Positions 1,695 through 64,000 of a DNA stretch of 64,000 nt are shown piece by piece. Source of the stretch: Chytridium lagenaria (Eukaryota > Chytridiomycota > Chytridiomycetes > Chytridiales > Chytridiaceae); NCBI GenBank assembly GCA_025449115.1, contig JAHLKC010000178.1, positions 1 through 64,000 on the forward strand, read 5' to 3'. The notes under the pieces were generated by a model that saw nothing but the letters and a program-made list of their open reading frames with translations, searched no databases and had not been told where the DNA came from. The translations under genes were made by a program, and so were the position numbers. The first letter of the stretch is position 1, and every line of letters starts with the position of its first letter.

Positions 1695-4092
1695 ATGACG
1701 GCCTCCATCGACACCTCCCCTGATTTCACTCCTACCAACACTACTACCAATACCACCACCACCACCACCACCACTACTACTACTACTGCCAATACGATGG
1801 TCAACTTGAAACAACAAGTAGCAGCAGACTTTATTCAAGATGACCCTCTTCCCTCCTACGCATCCTCAATAACTGATTCTGTCACATCTCACTCGAACCG
1901 TCGTCACAAGTCTTCTTCATCCTCATCCCGTCGTCATGCAAAAGCTCCTTCTTCCTCTTCTTCTCCTCCTGCCATGACTCCCATTGAACACCACCATCAA
2001 CTCTCTAGAAGAAAGTCGGACAGGAAAAGAAGCATCGTCCCACCTCCCCCCATCAATGTCATCAAAAAAGTCGACCATCTGGACTTGAAATCTCAATTCA
2101 ATGAAAAGGCCATGTTTGACATGATGGAACATGGTGGTGGTGCTGGTGTTGGGCTGGGTGGTGTTGGCCTGACGGATCCAGTGCAGGTGAGATTATTTTT
2201 TTATAGTGTGATTGAGGAGGTTTACGTCATCGGATGAATGGGATCTGTGGGACCCCGCAAGAGCGGAACTTGCGAAACCGGACGAGGTCTATGCTGTAAA
2301 ACAAGTGATAAACATTGCCGTGAAGCATCGCGAACCGCTTCTTTATTCCGCGCAAATCGAGTCCAACCATCTTGCGTTAGCAGGATTTAGCTGATTTAGT
2401 GGTCCATGCATAACATACTGCCCATACACGATGGCCACTACTTTCTTCATATCGTTTTGTTCTTTTTCATACTCTATTCTACCCATACATCATATTTCTA
2501 ACGCGGATACTATCCAATCTAGCTCGACACTGTCATGCAGAGAATATCTGCAACGCAACAACAACTGGCATCCATGATGGAAGACCTAAAACTCGTCGCA
2601 AGAACAGTCGCCGCCAGCTCCGCTCCTCAACAACAACAGCAACAACAACAACAACAGCAACTCCTATTACAACAAAACAACCACCACCACCCTTTAACCA
2701 CATCCACTTCCTCTACTTTAACCCCAACAACTTCAACACTATCATCATACCCCCCACTCCATCGCCAACTTAACCGTCCCGCCTCCATGCATTTCCCAAC
2801 ACCCCCTCATCACCACCACCACCACAACAACGACGACTACCATCACCCTCCCGACATGCACCGTCGCCTCTCTGTTTCCTCTTCCACCTCGCTCCCCTCC
2901 CGTTACACCACCACCCTCCCACAAGGCGGTACCGTCTTTGTCGACCCAGACGACGAAGTCACCATGAGCCCTCACACACCCGTCTCACCCTGGCACCATC
3001 GCACCTGGACGCCCCCCACCCGATCTCGATGTTCCACGTCGTCACAACTCTTACACCCCATCCTCCTCCCCTTCCTCCTCCTCCGACACCGACTCCTACA
3101 CCCCTCGTCGTCGAATCCGTCGTCTCGAACACCCACGTCCCCGATCCTCAACCCCTCGAGCAACCCCATCCCGTCCCTCCACGCCCCGTCTCGCCTCCCC
3201 ACACACAGACGACGATCCCCCGGCGTCATCACGTCGTGCGAAACGCCGAGACGCCCAATTCGACCAATCCTTTGATAAAGTCTCCACCATGCTTCAGAGT
3301 CTCATCATGGAAGCGAAAATGGCTGTCAACGAACCCACACCCATTCTCAACCTCTCTGATGAGGAGCTTGTTGAAACACCTTCTTGGACTCTACCCACTG
3401 GCGCCTCTCTTTCTCGAACCACTGTTGCGCCACCCCCCGACGCGTTAGAGGACGGATTCAACCTGTGACGGTGGATGTTGGAGAGTTTGGGGTGGAGAAG
3501 TTGGGGTTTTCACCTGATTCCCTTATTGCGTTGGGAGGGAGGATGATGAGGATGTGTTTCATGTTGCTGAGAGTGGGAATGAGGAGGAGCGTGGGAGAGG
3601 GCGAGGTTTGGACCGACTTTGGAGAATGTGTCGTCGGATGAGGCGACAGAGTCTTTGGAGGAGGAGGAGGAGGAGGAGGTGGAGGAGAGTGTGGAGAGTA
3701 TTGTGAAGGGTGTGGAACGGATGGGGGAGGGAGGAGGAGGTGGTGCGAAGCCTTGGGAGGAGAAGGTGGTGGTTGTACCGAATCGTGTGGTGGATTCTTG
3801 GGAGTGAATGGATCGTCGGCGGTATGTATTTTTCTTCTCTTTTTTTTGGGGGGGGTCTGTGATCCTTTTATTTGTTCTTCTTCTCTTTTTATGATATGGG
3901 TATATGTATTGACGGTGCTTTTTTTTTTTTTTTTAGGCGTCAGCTTTACTGCTTACGCAGGTGTCGCTGTTGTTTATTATGGCGACGTCTGTGTGGACGG
4001 TGGCGAAATCGGCGTTTGGGACGGGAGTTGGGGGGACTATGTTTGGGTTTTCGGGGAAAGAAGAAGAGAAGAAGAAGAAGGCGGGCAAGTGA
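1695..4092 (+). CDS. Low-complexity tail-anchored membrane protein of unknown function
   Basis: Exon 1 (1695-2186) starts MTASIDTSP and has a poly-Thr tract, a Ser-rich block and basic clusters. It splices in phase 0 to exon 2 (from 2523) at LTDPVQ|LDTVMQ, giving a Gln/Leu-rich coiled-coil-like segment (SATQQQLASMMEDLKL), poly-Gln, His runs, and then Arg/Ser/Pro-rich disorder. Protein-like sequence changes frame in a C run near 3013 and again near 3465-3640, reading DKVSTMLQSLIMEAKMAV, then an acidic EEEEEEE segment. The last exon (3937-4092) encodes a hydrophobic helix (LLLTQVSLLFIMATSVWTVA) and ends GKEEEKKKKAGK before TGA 4090. A C-terminal helix with a basic tail suggests a tail-anchored ER or outer-membrane protein. 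This is inference; no known family is recognised. The frameshifts sit in homopolymers and look like consensus errors. Confidence 0.6.
2187..2522 (+). other. Long intron with an unexplained GC-richer insert
   Basis: This 336-base intron is several times longer than most here. Its flanks are AT-rich, but 2235-2395 is GC-richer and holds a 53-codon open stretch (reads DEWDLWDPARAELAKP and further) with no ATG. It could be an alternative exon, an exonised mobile-element piece or a non-coding RNA. Nothing in the sequence decides between these. Confidence 0.4.
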
Positions 4093-56492: not shown

Positions 56493-56502
56493 GCCTTTTT
56501 TT

Positions 56503-56526
56503 GGCCCCTTACCATACCGTACCACG
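56503..56526 (+). repeat. Left terminal inverted repeat
   Basis: GGCCCC followed by TTACCATACCGTACCACG. It pairs with 62073-62100 over an 18-20 base core with two mismatches and a 3-base gap. Confidence 0.7.
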
Positions 56527-57015
56527 CAGTAATCAAAAATTAAAGAATCAAAAATTCGGAGGTAGGGGGGGGGGTTCAACTGGGTATCGATGGGGAAGGG
56601 GAAGAAGGAGAGGTTGAAGGAAGGGGAGAAGAGACGGGAAGGGACAGGACGGATCTAGGTAAGACTGATTGCGTTGTATTCTAATGGATGATAACTATCT
56701 ACAGCCTAGCATACCTTTCGATCGCAGTTGGGAATTAACGGTGAGTGTTGCGAGCTGATATAAAAATGATGTAAATCTTTATTTATGTTTAATTAACGTT
56801 ATTCGTCGACCAATTATTTCTTCATTTCGGCTGCAGCGTGCGGCTGCCGAGAAGTAGCCATCGACATTTTTGGCCTTCTCAGGAAAAGGTCAGTAGCTTT
56901 TCCACACATCCAACTCGATTGCTAACCTTTTTTTGATCCCTTTCCTGGACAATCCTCTTCTCTACACTTCTCGCATTTATTCACACAAGATCCGCGGGGT
57001 GTTGCACCTTGGAAG

Positions 57016-60000
57016 TTAGGTAGGCAAGAATATTCTTAATTTACCTTTGCATTTGGCCAACCCGCATATTTTACACTCCCTTACTTTTTTTCCCGCTGCT
57101 CTTTGTCTTTCTGGCTGTTCCTCTCGCGTTATCGAGGGCACTGATGCTCTAACTGTTTGCTGCGCGATTTCAACAACAGATTGCGCAGTAACATCTTCCA
57201 TAGATGTACTTCCGATTGATGGGATATAAGGGATTCGAAAGGGTACGCGAGCTTGAGGCGAAGAAGGGGGAAGGATTGTATGGGATGGAGATGTGGAAGG
57301 CGAATTTAGGTCAGTCTCCATTTGTATGTCATCTCCTTCCGAGTTAGTATTGACCTCGTCTTCCCCTTCTCTCTCCTCAAAGTAGTGCATTATCTCGCCA
57401 TAATCAGGGAGAAGCTCTTCGGGCTCTTGGAACACGGTAGACCCTTCAATCATTTCTCCCTCCACTGTTTTTCTAATATCCTCCGCTCGGCGGTCCATTA
57501 TTTGAACTGCACCTTTTTGTTTCTGCTCCTTGAATCGCTTCTGCCACCTCTCTACATATATCTGAACTTGTTAATAAATCACTTTTATAACTTAGTACCT
57601 TATAGTATTGTTCGAGATGATCAGGCAATTTCTGGAATATTTTCGCGGCAACATTTGGTTTAGCGGATCCAACTTCCCGTGCAAGCATAACTTTCCGATA
57701 TTCCAGTCCGCCGCCATTCGCTTCCAGTCTCCCCCCTTCCCCGCAGCTTCACCAGTCCCAAAGCGAGTTATTTCGTAGTGAGGTATGAAGCGAAAAAATA
57801 AAGCTCTCTCCTGTTCCGACTGTATTGGTGTATGTGGCACGACTGTCCTCATCTTCTTTGCGAGAAACTTTTCAGAAGTTGAGTATCCCTTAAACTCGGG
57901 GGCATTCTCAACATCTTCAAAGTCTTTCCGTTCAACAACGGGAACAACTCCAAAAGGCTCAAAATCAAGACTCGGTGAAATTCTTGTAAACTGCTCGTAA
58001 TAAAATCCTTGATGTCGACGACCATACAATTTCTCTTTGGTCAATATAATCTGATCATACAGCCAATTCGAGTAATTTCCTGTTTTTGGATAGTGAGGCC
58101 GGAGTTTTTGAGATGCACGAACGTTGTAACGATGCCTGTGAACCATCGTAGCATAGTGCAAAAGTTGAGGGCTGGCATTCCAAGGTTCCATGTGCATCTC
58201 CAGCTTTTGATGGTAGGTCTCGACTGCGTTAGTTCCGCGGATAGTTCGATAAAGTTGAAGCCCACTCTTTTTGTCAATGCCCGTCTTGAAATAGAGGTTT
58301 ACGCCAGGGGGGTCGGAAATGCAGCCGTTCCTCACATGAATAAGGAGCTTTTCATAGGCAGCCAAAGCCTTCTCGTCCAGCAACTTTTTGGCGTCGACCG
58401 TATATTCTGGCTTTGAGAACTCTCTCACTACATTCTCAAGCAATTCCTCTAGCTTATCTGGCGGAGGAACCCGGCGTCGAACACGTTCAAAGATCCATTG
58501 CGGCTTGCTCCGCAGCAGAGAGTCAAATGTACATGGCGTCCAAAATCATCCCTTTGTTCCGCAATGTAGTCTTCAACTTTTTGCTTATCGTCGTCATTGA
58601 ACAGAAAGAATGCATCCCTTAATTTTGCGCAGAAGATGCCGAGAAAGGATGCTTGCTGGGTATGAACTTGGTGATTCGTCTCATGGCATGAATATATCAA
58701 GTAAGACGCGAGTCTTTAATCCCCGTCTGTAAACAGGAAAGTTGGATTGGTGACGGTCGGAATGCTGAGATTCGTTTGAAACCGGTCTAGAGAAATTCGT
58801 TGGAGATGGGTGAGCTTCTGCCGCGTCGTCTGGCTCTGGAAAAGCTAAGTCATGAGGAGGGATCACTACGGAGTCGTCGGCATTGGCAACCGCCTTTTGC
58901 ATTGTCTCGTAAACAAGTAGTGAAGCCCAAGCGTCTCGAGCGGCGTAACACTTTTTAGCCTCTGACAGATCCCCTGACCAAGAAGTCTTTCGAAGGTCCT
59001 CGCCTTTGTCCAACGTAAAACCCAGAAAAGTCTCTGCCATCATCTGCAATGACCAGCGACGTCTATCCCCGTGGAGCAGGTGGTGATCACGCGCGTATTC
59101 CTCGAGAGCAACAACATTTCCCATCTTGATGGCGTAATCATCGAGTAAGTTTTTGGCATCCTGCTTTGCGCTCCGTCCAGAAGCAATAAGCGACGATGTT
59201 CCAATAACTCCTTCAGGACCTCTGGCACTGTTGGCTTGTCAGGATTGAGCTGAATCAAAAGCACGTATCTATGAATAGGTTAGAAAACGGCATATGTAAA
59301 AGTTACAGCAATAATGCATTACCGTTTGGAAAGACGCGCTCTGTATGGTATCCGCTAAGTTTGCGAAATGCAATTTGAATGAGACAGACGCGGGAACGTT
59401 GTGGCCGCGCCGTTTGGGCATATTCCACTCAGTATCAAATCCAACAACCAGATCCACTCCATTATCCATGAATTCTAAGAGAGGTTGCAAAACTGTAACA
59501 AGATTTCCGGTCTTTGAGATAAATCCGGGGCTCCCCGGCAAGCTTAGGAGCGGGGAATAGCAAGGCCGTCCTTCAACGATGGAAAAACACTCTCCAAAAA
59601 AGGTCGGTCTCCCCCCATGCCGCAACACTTATCGGTGTAGAAAAACTCTACAGGGGCTCGCTGATCAGGGTTGTGTCTTGCTATAGAATCAGCCAGCGCT
59701 CGGAACGGAGGTCCCTTACGTCATGCGAACCCGACTGCAAAAACATCGAGGTTTTTATCTCGCCGTACTTTGTCATTATAGTGCAGTATGCACTGTGAAG
59801 AGACTGTCCGCCTTTTTGCTGAGAGTGTTTGACTATCTATACTTTATGTGAATAAAAAGACAATCAGGTTGTAACATACCTTAAAACTATCATCACATTT
59901 ATATATATCACTTGTAAGGCGATGGCATTCTGCGTTATAAACAGGTTCCGAGAGTTCCATTGTTTTAACAAACACCTTTTGAAGGTAGGTACCTGAAGCG

Positions 60001-61896
60001 AATATTTTTAGACAAAGAAGGAAAACGGAAATTGCGAACCTGATGGAAATCGTCCATTATAACCACTCCGATCAAAGAAACTTGAGAAGTCAGGTATCGT
60101 TCTTAGGTCGCGTTTAAGCACATAGCTCAGAGCAGGTCGCGTCGGAAGCTTTGAAAAAGCCAAAAGCAAATCCCAGTATCGTAACATTTTCTTCGCATAT
60201 GCTTCTGTATAGTTTTCCTTGCAGATTCCGCTAATTTGCGTTGGCCCCAAACCCTTCTCACACCCTTGACATAGCAGCGCCAGAATATCGTTATCAACTC
60301 CTATCTTTTCGTCAATAGAGCAGGGAAAGCTTCTTGAATCGCTCGAGGTAAGGTTCGAATAGCGGAAGGTTGCGTTCCGAGGAAGCAAGAGGCTGTTTTT
60401 TGGTTTGGGTTTTTTGGGCACTTGTGACATTGTAGCTGGAATTCAATATAAATATATTTTATTAGATAACATAAAGGAGGAAGTGAAAGTCTTTGAAAGG
60501 AAACACTTACTGGCATGTGAATATATAGTAGCAGCCGTCTGTCAAGCTGTAAACTTTTCTGAACGAGCGCTTTGGCCGACGACGCTTCACATTTTCCGAG
60601 CTCTGACAATACTGGCACGAGAATCTGCGGTTTAATTTAATTATGTGTTTTGTTATTATGTTCGAAAAAAAAAAGACTTACTGAAACGGTGCAAAAGATA
60701 TGTCGGGGAACCACAAAAAAACGCGGGGTAGGTAAAATACGCTGGGATCTGGCTTAAACCCCTTTTTGAGCGAATTGTTTAGGTCTGCACAGGATCCGGT
60801 GGGTCTACCCAAAGCTTTCCGTCCAAAAGTGCCTTATAAAGGCTCGAGACATTCTGCTTTTTTTCGATATGTCGTCCATAAGCCTCGTATAAAGTCGGTG
60901 AAGGTAGTCATCCACCGGCCCATTTCCATCAACTTTCCGCAGCATCGTCTACATCATCTTCTCTAAAGTTGTTAAGTAAAGAAGTTTTTGAAGATACCCA
61001 CAACTCATTATCGTCAGCAATCTTCGTCATCTTCTCCCTCGCCGCTCTCAAAATCATCCACCGCAAGTCGTTCGTCACTAAATTGCGTTCGCTCATCCAT
61101 CCTATTGCCTCCCCATCGTTTTGTTGTCATTTACTGCTTCCCCACTATTGGCATTTCTCACTCTCCTGGTATTCTCATCGGTCATGACTCCTGCTTCCGC
61201 ATCACTGCCATTCGTGATAGCTCCCCCACCAACACAGTCTTGTTCTAAAAAGGTTCCGTTCGTCATTTCTTCATCATGAATAAAAGAATCTTCATTTGCG
61301 ACCCGTGTTCCTTCTGTGACTTTTCGTTCTTCTTGTGAAGCGGTCCGATCAAGATTCATGCATTCCAGACTTTTTTCATATTACTTTTAAATATAAATAT
61401 TTCTTTAATTACCTTTGAAATGACCCCTCCTCATCAAAGAAAGTCGTTTCCGTCGATTTCGAACAAGCGGAATCTCGTCCTCCTCATCCGTCGGTAAATC
61501 TGGTGGAAGTGTCGGCAATGCGAGACTATTTTTATGATAACAAGATTTTTATGTTAAATGCATGAGCTCACCGTGATGATGTTCCAGCTTTCTGGACAGG
61601 TTTGCTTCCTCCTGCAGGTCGTCCAGCGTTTTTTCTGACACCTCCTGCTTTGTGATTGGATGCATTTTTACTTCCTGCCTTCCTCCCTCGCTTTGATGTG
61701 GGGGATCCGATGCTCGCGGCGCCTGGGTGTTCAGAGGAGGCAGTATGGGGATGGAACTTGAACTTGCGCTTGCTGATGCCGTATCGGAACGAGTTGCATT
61801 ATCAGCAACAACAAAGTAGTCCATGATTCGTTGCCTCTTGCGGACCATCCTTCCATTGGTTTCCTCGGTGTAATCCTTTATAGATTCTGACGACAT
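57016..61896 (-). CDS. Zinc-ribbon (DUF6729-like) + DEDDy 3'-5' exonuclease + transposase-like protein
   Basis: ATG 61896 starts MSSESIKDYTEETNGRM and a disordered, acidic N-terminus. Around 60600-60400 a zinc-ribbon-like unit has CQYC and CHKC, then LPRAIQEAFPALLTK, GVDNDILALLCQGCEKGLGP and GYNGRFPSGSQFPFSFF, the pattern I know as DUF6729. A WRN-like exonuclease follows: motif I DLVVGFDTEWN (59450), motif II LLLDGAQS..DAKNLLDDYAIKMGN (59190), motif III KKCYAARDAWASLLVYE (58940). The tail has RTIRGTNAVETYHQKLEMHM (58220), recalling the TNxxExxH block near the end of several transposases, and a CKICGLAKCKGK knuckle near the stop. The length is about 1,200-1,300 residues in several exons. Shifts at AAAA (60313) and C (59160) sit in runs. 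Alone between inverted repeats, it is the likely mobility protein; an exonuclease active in host DNA repair is the alternative. Confidence 0.72.
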
Positions 61897-62072
61897 GATG
61901 GATGGATGGAGATGGAGTGATGGTAGGGCGACGGATGGTAAACAAAAGGAAACAAAGAAACAAAAGTTGTTAATAAACGGTCTGCAAAAGGTTATTGGCT
62001 GTTTTAGATTACTTATAGAAAGAGCGCTCATTGGCTCTTTTACATCATTGGCTGTTTTAAACTATATAGAAT

Positions 62073-62100
62073 CATGGTACGGTATGGCAAGTGGGGGCCC
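62073..62100 (-). repeat. Right terminal inverted repeat
   Basis: The reverse strand reads GGGCCCCCA then CTTGCCATACCGTACCATG, the counterpart of 56503-56526. It is followed on the + strand by T8. Confidence 0.7.
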
Positions 62101-62339
62101 TTTTTTTTGTTGTTTTGTTAACAAATTTGTCACTTTTGACACAGTGACAACGACACCGTGCGAGTAAGTTTAGGTTTCAAAATGTTTTATTAAGATTAGA
62201 ACACCGATAACATGAGGGTTCTCCCTCTTAATCAAAAGGCTTTATGAGAATACAAAGTTGCATAAAAATTACGATAAAGGGAAAAGTAACAAGGCTGTAT
62301 ACGCTAGTAATTGAGATTCCGTCATTTGGCTGTGTGAGA
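62101..62339. other. Spacer between transposon and satellite
   Basis: No gene is seen. It contains a small inverted repeat around GTCACTTTTGACACAGTGAC (62129-62148). Confidence 0.5.
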
Positions 62340-64000
62340 TGTGCTTATGCATATCAAGTTGAAGCTTTGTGTGGTTGCGTGTGGTTGCAACTTTGTGTGG
62401 TTGCAACAGAGGGTTCCTACCCCTAGCCCAAGGGCGGATGCACTGCAACTTGAAGTTACAACTGTGTGTGATCGCGTATGGTTGCAACCCTGTGCTATAG
62501 TAACGCAACTTCAAGTTGCAACTAATCTGTGTGTGGTACAATGCAATTTAAAGTTGCAACTGTGTGTGTTTCTGTGTGGTTGCAACTGTGTGTGGTTGCA
62601 ATAGACACAGCATTTGTGTGTAACCGTTTTCATTGTATATTGCAGATATGCACCGCTGTGTGGTTGCGCAAGTATGGGTTGCAACACAACTTGAAACTAG
62701 TTGCAGCTGAGTGTGGTTGCGTGTGTGGTTGCAACCAAGTTGCATATCAGCATGTGTGCGTATGGTTGCAACACGCATATCATCTGTGTGTGGTTGCAAT
62801 GTAAATTGCAGTTGCAACTCTGTGTGGTTGCGTATGTGGTTGCAACGCAACTTGAAGTTGCAACTGAGTGTGCACAGTTGCGTGATCTGTGTGTAATTGC
62901 AATGATATTGCAGTTGCAACTGTGTGTTGTTGCGTAAGTGGTTGCAACGCAACCTGAACTTGCAACTGTGTGAGGTTGCGTGTGGTTGCAACTGTGTGTG
63001 TTTTTCTGACTGGTTGCAACTGTCTGGGGTTGCAACAGACACATCATTTGCGTGTGGTTGCAACCAAGTTGCATATCAGCATGTGTGCGTATGGTTGCAA
63101 CTGTCTATGGTTGCAAACACACATATCATCTGTGTGTGGTTGCAATGTATATTGCAGTTGCAACTTTGTGTTGTTGCGTAAGTGGTTGCAACGCAACCTG
63201 AACTTGCAACTGTGTGAGGTTGCGTGTGGTTGCAACTGTGTGTGTGTTTGTGACTGGTTGCAAGTGTCTGTGGTTGCAACAGATATATCATTTGCGTGCG
63301 GTTGCAACCAAGTTGCATATCAGCGTGTGTGCGTATGGTTGCAACTGTCTATGGTTGCAACACGCATATCATCTGTGTGTGGTTGCAATGTAAATTGCAG
63401 TTGCAACTCTGTGTGGTTGCGTAAGTGGTTGCAACGCAACTTGAAGTTGCAACTGGTGTGCACAGTTGCGTGATCTGTGTGTAATTGCAATGTATATTGC
63501 AGTTGCAAATGTGTGTTGTTGCGTAAGTGGTTGCAACGCAACCTGAACTTGCAACTGTGTGAGGTTGCGTGTGGTTGCAACTGTGTGTGTTTTTCTGACT
63601 GGTTGCAACTGTCTGGGGTTGCAACAGACACATCATTTGCGTGTGGTTGCAACCAAGTTGCATATCAGCATGTGTGCGTATGGTTGCAACTGTCTATGGT
63701 TGCAAACACACATATCATCTGTGTGTGCTTGCAATGTATATTGCAGTTGCAACTGTGTGTTGTTGCGTAAGTGGTTGCAACGCAACCTGAACTTGCAACT
63801 GTGTGAGGTTGCGTGTGGTTGCAACTGTGTGTGTGTTTGTGACTGGTTGCAAGTGTCTGTGGTTGCACAGACATATCATTTGCGTGCGGTTGCAATCAAG
63901 TTGCATATCAGCGTGTGTGCGTATGGTTGCAACTGTCTATGGTTGCAACACGCATATCATCTGTGTGTGGTTGCAATGTAAATTGCAGTTGCAACTCTGT
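62340..64000. repeat. Higher-order satellite array (589-bp period) rich in GTTGCAAC
   Basis: From about 62340 to the window end the sequence is built from 15-40 base units of the form GTTGCAAC plus TGTGTGTG-like linkers. GTTGCAAC is its own reverse complement. The block GCAACCTGAACTTGCAACTG starts at 62949, 63193, 63538 and 63782, so 62949 pairs with 63538 and 63193 with 63782, both 589 bases apart. A shorter unit with GTGCACAGTTGCGTGATC recurs at the same 589-base spacing (62870 and 63459). Thus one higher-order repeat has two about 244-base units plus one about 101-base unit. Left-edge copies (62340-62700) are more diverged, as at satellite borders. Cys/Val/Leu-rich or Gln/His-rich frames on both strands are by-products, not genes. 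The array runs off the window. Confidence 0.88.

Follow-up and report, generated by a model that had tools for sequence, protein, structure and literature searches.

An exonuclease-bearing mobile element of Chytridium lagenaria and its probable place among Dada DNA transposons

In the chytrid Chytridium lagenaria, positions 56503-62099 of the stretch analyzed here (the window: the first 64,000 nucleotides of contig JAHLKC010000178.1, C178 in what follows) form a segment with inverted ends and one gene, whose product carries a 3′-5′ exonuclease. A first-pass annotation, made from the sequence alone, presented this segment as a candidate for a new kind of DNA transposon, where the exonuclease would serve either as the transposition nuclease or as an end-trimming helper. 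Two questions are raised by this locus: whether the segment moves, and what an exonuclease might do in the only protein of such an element. The segment is a mobile element and one copy of a multi-copy family. It probably represents an autonomous DNA transposon of the cut-and-paste type, here in a degraded copy, from the exonuclease-bearing lineage of Dada.

The element is bounded by an imperfect terminal inverted repeat (TIR) of about 24 bp. GGCCC and the core CTTRCCATACCGTACCAYG are common to both ends, with a 3-base offset between them (Table 1). Of the limits first proposed, 56503 and 62100, the left one stood, while the right end actually lies at 62099. Searches covered the whole assembly (41.9 Mb in 356 contigs). 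In a scan allowing at most one mismatch, the end core was found at 13 sites, all of which are, by position, ends of family copies or related end fragments, compared with a single match for the reversed pattern used as a control; the inverted ends with GGCCCC that had been noticed are thus real. A search with the whole element found 15 pieces, among them the window copy. Four copies retain both ends (C178, that of the window, C60, C57, and C148), three are truncated (C98, C93, and C181), and short fragments of the family are present on C86, C128, C170, C12, and C21. The copies on C60 and C57 are about 98% identical to that of the window, and C148 consists of two pieces about 10 kb apart, with 95% and 91% identity to it. 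The stretch that splits this last copy (C148:67944-77972, L035) includes a frame of 397 amino acids (aa) that we take to resemble a DIRS-type reverse transcriptase/RNase H, and the interruption is probably one transposon nested inside another. The length of the outer G/C run also varies among copies, with GGCCCC or GGCCCCC at the left end and GGCCCA, GGCCTA, or GGCCCCCA at the right, by slippage or imprecise end processing.

Insertion is observed directly at the flanks. A perfect 8-bp target site duplication (TSD) flanks three of the four copies with both ends, and reads CTTTTTTT around the window copy, CAATTCTC around C57, and TTTTTTTA around C148; in the fourth, C60, it is of 7 bp (AAATGTT). 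For the window copy and C148, the TSDs fall within T-runs, and that of the window copy is weak taken alone. When the flanks were joined without the element and matched against the same genome, uninterrupted sites were found for three of the four copies, which is direct evidence of insertion. For the window copy, the empty site on C115 matches at 96% and has a single uninterrupted CCTTTTTTG with a shorter T-run. C57 has two such sites, on C13 (96%) and C53 (86%), and that on C13 reads ACCACAATTCTCAAAA, with the duplication present once. C148 inserted into a repeat and accordingly has, besides a site on C123 (98%), 19 others that match the full query at 85-87%. For C60, no empty site was found in the same genome. 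Several copies with common ends, TSDs, and three empty sites, all of them looked for in the genome, bear out the proposed mobility: this is a real mobile DNA transposon. A duplicated host gene would also be expected to show purifying selection (see below), and the zinc domain of the protein, DUF6729, is indeed found at other loci in the genome. Nevertheless, copies with exact common ends, TSDs, and empty sites, and with flanks that differ from one copy to another, leave the host gene explanation a negligible probability.

The sites of insertion are rich in A/T. In nine flanking 7-8-mers (four duplications and five single flanks, with an 8-bp target assumed), 61 of 71 bases are A or T, compared with 54.8% in the window (binomial p ~2e-8, in a test that treats bases as independent, which is untrue of T-runs). 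In one fragment, on C170 (L038, ~3990-4060), the left end comes directly after GGTTCGAATCC, presumably a B-box-like sequence, and an oligo-T run. The idea that this copy lies behind a tRNA gene was dropped, as none was recognized by ARAGORN or Rfam.

As first annotated, the element has only one gene, which is multi-exon, on the minus strand, and broken by frameshifts in the window copy. It reads best in C60, where the part used has two breaks, and in C148, which has a 580-residue open frame. Domains were searched with a 905-aa exon-joined translation of C60, which has X at the two frame breaks and includes neither the first exons nor the C-terminus. It matched DUF6729 (PF20499; 58.6 bits, cut-off 27) and DNA_pol_A_exo1 (PF01612; 63 bits, cut-off 23.6). 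The exonuclease matches structures of WRN (E 1.5e-12) and EXD2 (E 3.2e-8), and its motifs FDTEW, KQDAKNL, and YAARDAW make it a DEDDy enzyme with all catalytic residues. Both the DUF6729-like zinc region and the WRN-type exonuclease with three motifs had therefore been read correctly from the sequence. In the later part of the first exon, C60 and the window copy are read in different frames, and only C60 has GRP repeats, which we assume to be AT-hook-like. At the other extreme of the protein, the Cys-rich finger was read through a putative short intron and, in that stretch, is all-Cys and lacks H. DUF6729, which is named in no paper of open PubMed Central, is also found at C15:98803, C14:394417, C18:14353, and C32:146111, the last just under the cut-off; those on C18 and C32 look like mutual paralogues. 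No Dada-like segment was detected by tblastn (E ≤ 1) within ~1.5 kb on each side of these four loci, and DUF6729 alone is therefore not a Dada marker.

Table 1. Features of the element and its borders, by position in the window
Feature	Position	Strand	Basis or remark
Whole element	56503..62099	-	One family copy; gene on minus strand
Left TSD, CTTTTTTT	56495..56502	.	Equals 62100-62107; empty site C115:65531-65875
Left TIR, GGCCCC-TTACCATACCGTACCACG	56503..56528	+	End comparison, genome scan
C-terminal Cys-rich finger, ECKICGLAKCKG...	56930..57078	-	Read on across proposed short intron
RGTNAVETYH, proposed catalytic E	58210..58239	-	Kept in homologues
LLDIFHAMRRI (DxxH)	58673..58704	-	Frameshift-broken in window copy, intact in C60 and C148
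DEDDy 3′-5′ exonuclease, contains intron, frameshifted in window copy	58921..59442	-	PF01612 63 bits, WRN E 1.5e-12 (C60)
EFFYTDKCC, proposed second catalytic D	59622..59648	-	YTDxCC kept in P0004
SDIYKCDDSFK, proposed first catalytic D	59880..59912	-	Place and spacing only
N-terminal zinc ribbon CxxC-x34-CxxC, part of DUF6729, two exons	60409..60617	-	PF20499 58.6 bits (C60 translation)
First coding exon, MSSESIKDY...	61572..61896	-	End from proposed splice site
Right TIR, inward from 62099, GGCCCCCACTTGCCATACCGTACCATG	62074..62099	-	End comparison, genome scan
Right TSD, CTTTTTTT	62100..62107	.	T-run extends one base beyond

Outside the exonuclease, the protein carries a second series of motifs, in the order SDIYKCDDSFK, EFFYTDKCC, exonuclease, LLDIFHAMRRI, and RGTNAVETYH. 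The putative first and second catalytic D (D1 and D2) are 73 residues apart, with 295 from D2 to DxxH and 161 from DxxH to E. Judging from the sequence, the exonuclease would be inserted in a DDE transposase, between D2 (FFYTDKCC) and DxxH (LLDIFHAM), and RGTNAVETYH likely holds the catalytic E. The 905-aa query gave no protein match at E ≤ 0.001 among the 7993 candidates that shared the most words with it. A narrower query gave P0001 (33% identity, E 1.1e-19; the one match among 1141 candidates), and a two-sequence profile gave eight homologues, P0001 included, among 7999 candidates scored. In viral contigs, one stretch matched a pattern, and no relative was found by tblastn. Among relatives from named organisms, the nearest are P0003 and P0008, both from Ectocarpus, neither of which bears the Dada name. 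P0004, a protein of 673 residues with PF01612, keeps the order YTDxCC, exonuclease, LDIFHAM; in P0008, the aligned part runs from the end of the exonuclease into LDIFHA, although Pfam lists no exonuclease in this protein. RGTNxxE is present in six of the seven aligned sequences that reach the motif (L034, P0001, P0002, P0003, P0005, and P0006); P0004, the exception, has RGTPQLE and terminates two residues further on, and P0007 and P0008 stop short of the site. Thus, DxxH and E are conserved in homologues, and D2 in P0004. The transposase-like character first attributed to RGTNAVETYH stands, while its description as a tail does not, as more than 300 codons follow it, ending in the Cys-rich finger.

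These motifs bear on the possibility that the exonuclease, through its RNase H-like fold, is itself the nuclease of transposition and that a DDE core is absent. In its favor, Pfam recognizes no other catalytic domain in the protein, and FDTEW, KQDAKNL, and YAARDAW are all there. By contrast, D2, DxxH, and E lie outside it and are conserved in distant homologues, and, in the accessible text of PMC3706591, an exonuclease is reported among Dada only for the Laccaria and Ectocarpus families. With the D, D, DxxH, E series outside the exonuclease and the same layout in that paper, it is very improbable that the exonuclease is the transposition nuclease, as the first-pass annotation had allowed.

Purifying selection on the coding regions is observed directly. 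Between C60 and C148, the ratio of non-synonymous to synonymous divergence (dN/dS) is 0.08 over 1027 codons, from 59 changes at 680 synonymous sites and 18 at 2401 non-synonymous sites, gapped codons being dropped. By region, it is 0.14 in DUF6729, 0.04 from D1 to D2, 0.11 in the exonuclease, 0.05 in the linker and DxxH, and 0.08 in E and after; the exonuclease was therefore kept under constraint together with the rest of the protein. The other pairs gave 0.16 for C181 (706 codons, with one stop codon dropped), 0.12 for C93 (428 codons, two regions missing), and 0.07 for C178 (1013 codons). Synonymous divergence (dS) is uneven along the gene when C60 is compared with C178, C148, and C93 (for instance, with C178 it is 0 from D1 to D2 and 0.19 in the linker and DxxH), which suggests recombination or gene conversion between copies.

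The layout of this protein matches one reported in 2013. As described in the part of PMC3706591 that is openly accessible, in the Dada elements of Laccaria bicolor (Dada-1_LB and Dada-2_LB) and Ectocarpus siliculosus (Dada-1_ES), the stretch from D2 to DxxH contains a DEDDy exonuclease, which was proposed to process the cleaved 3′ ends, the helper option of the annotation. Both the layout and the idea of 3′-end processing are therefore already published, and the claim of a new kind of transposon is unsupported. Further likenesses to these three elements are an N-terminal CCCC zinc finger, the introns, and a length within that of complete Dada (4666-10979 bp in the same text). DDE and DxxH are also alike in Dada-U6, Dada-U1, and Dada-tRNA, from fish, Daphnia, Capitella, and Perkinsus (available text of PMC3706591 and PMC8869645). 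In Dada-U6_DR, for instance, the zinc cysteines are spaced C-x4-C-x34-C-x2-C, compared with C-x2-C-x34-C-x2-C here, x34-C-x2-C being identical; D1 and D2 are 68 residues apart instead of 73, and D2 and E are 176 apart, so that the D-to-E distances become similar when the exonuclease insert is removed. Elsewhere, one Dada family, of 15 copies, is recorded for Ectocarpus in the accessible portion of a transposon survey (PMC12477816), and a study of Marasmius oreades, which its authors searched for Dada, reports in its accessible portion no multiple well-supported matches (PMC8290104).

Several observations weigh against placing the element in Dada, or against a DDE core in its protein. No transposase model in Pfam matched the 905-aa translation, and none of the homologues found extends over the exon of the first D. 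The AlphaFold model of the C148 open frame, made without an alignment, was useless (mean predicted local distance difference test, pLDDT, 34), and that of P0004, made with nine alignment rows, was weak (48), with a fairly confident helical stretch at ~511-630. Fold searches with these models returned EXD2 for the exonuclease, common helical arrangements, and no transposase, so that the DDE fold is still an inference, at the level of motifs. Of the structure prediction suggested at the outset as a way to see a second RNase H-like core, the exonuclease fold was recovered, while the second core was not, from such poor models. In the exonuclease, dN/dS rises to 0.23 for C181, 0.33 for C93 (46 codons only), and 0.23 for C178; its constraint is perhaps somewhat less strict than that of the rest. 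Kinship with Dada rests on layout, spacing, and Ectocarpus homologues without the Dada name. The TSDs of published Dada, 6-7 bp in what is accessible of PMC3706591 and PMC8869645, are not matched by the 8 bp seen in three of the four copies, the other having 7 bp. In the same portion of PMC3706591, Dada with clearly definable termini sit in small-RNA genes, and the U6 and U1 families have no TIRs, while this element does. At the 13 loci with copies and flanks, ARAGORN (bacterial setting) recognized no tRNA and Rfam gave no match at the gathering score, both without a positive control.

TSD length varies inside other superfamilies, for instance 5-8 bp in hAT (PMC12730594, as far as accessible), and 8 bp is therefore a difference from Dada and not an exclusion. 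Dada-U6, Dada-U1, and Dada-tRNA, for which no exonuclease is reported in the available text of PMC3706591, differ from the element in their 6-7-bp TSDs and small-RNA targets; PMC8869645 describes many Dada, and not all, as target-specific. The names of Dada-1_LB, Dada-2_LB, and Dada-1_ES contain no target gene; compared by description with what is accessible on them, the element here has defined ends, TIRs, and 8-bp TSDs. Published Dada have a C-terminal CCHC finger; a C-terminal finger is present here too, and shows only Cys in the stretch read. As far as the open PubMed Central literature shows, inverted ends, 8-bp duplications, and insertion into A/T-rich DNA where no small-RNA gene was detected are new for Dada.

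The same features could instead define a separate superfamily, related to Dada and distinct from it, perhaps nearer to KDZ (Kyakuja, Dileera, Zisupton) through a CxC-type zinc cluster. The 8-bp TSDs and TIRs, the lack of a small-RNA gene match at the copies, and a weak match of the C60 translation to CxC5, the KDZ-associated Cys cluster (E 0.04), would all agree with this. Nevertheless, the CxC5 match has 14.5 bits, under the cut-off of 26.9, the order and spacing of the motifs and the spacing of the zinc cysteines fit Dada, and the exonuclease stands at the place published for Dada, which makes a separate superfamily rather unlikely. The resemblance to KDZ is in the Cys-cluster region near the N-terminus, and no KDZ transposase model in Pfam matched the partial 905-aa translation of C60. 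KDZ descriptions are not known to include an exonuclease. Other superfamilies share single traits. An 8-bp TSD agrees with hAT; in Pfam, neither a BED finger nor the hAT dimerization region was matched by the partial translation (E limit 10, with HMMER filters that drop weak matches). KolobokD, in the accessible text of PMC9587614, is likewise a DNA transposon lineage with an exonuclease, and its superfamily shares a C/DxxH motif; however, its exonuclease is DEDDh (DnaQ-type) instead of DEDDy, and the 4-bp TTAA duplication of Kolobok is not found among the four TSDs of this element.

If the element belongs to the exonuclease-bearing Dada, as we consider probable, one protein would do all the work of transposition. 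The DUF6729 zinc ribbon at the N-terminus and the Cys-rich finger at the C-terminus probably bind DNA, and a DDE core of RNase H type would pair the inverted ends and then cut. The freed 3′ ends would be joined across an 8-bp stagger in A/T-rich DNA, and gap repair by the host would leave the 8-bp duplications. The exonuclease probably trims 3′ ends at the donor site, or ends that have been mis-cut. For this step only, an alternative is that the exonuclease acts against the host, degrading intermediates of repair or silencing, and not on the transposon ends. A different type of exonuclease in another superfamily, KolobokD (PMC9587614, accessible part), may speak for this; by contrast, a position inside the catalytic core would favor a role at the ends, and constraint was maintained together with the rest of the protein. 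We thus consider an anti-host role unlikely, and trimming of the ends the preferred reading of this step. More tentatively, and with less confidence than doubt, the branch of Dada that carries the exonuclease, or else a sister superfamily, could represent a general A/T-targeting transposon with TIRs and 8-bp TSDs, where an exonuclease in the DDE core was an ancestral end-processing module, comparable to the GTPase domain of P elements; targeting of small-RNA genes and loss of TIRs would then be a later specialization of the exonuclease-free branch.

Beyond the element, at a distance of ~700 bases, the window contains complex tandem arrays of GGTTGCAAC-type units (62782-63994), with nested periods of 28, 46, 81, 102, 244, and 345.

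The ends of exonuclease-bearing Dada are not described in the accessible text of PMC3706591. In addition, part of Pfam DUF6729 is linked here to a transposase. Some uncharacterized eukaryotic exonuclease proteins would thereby have their annotation corrected, and this link does not extend to every DUF6729 gene. With its defined ends, its duplications, and its empty sites, this family opens the way to a transposition assay, in which the role of an exonuclease inside a DDE core could be tested. The most useful consequence is thus a defined system in which to ask what an exonuclease does within a DDE transposase.

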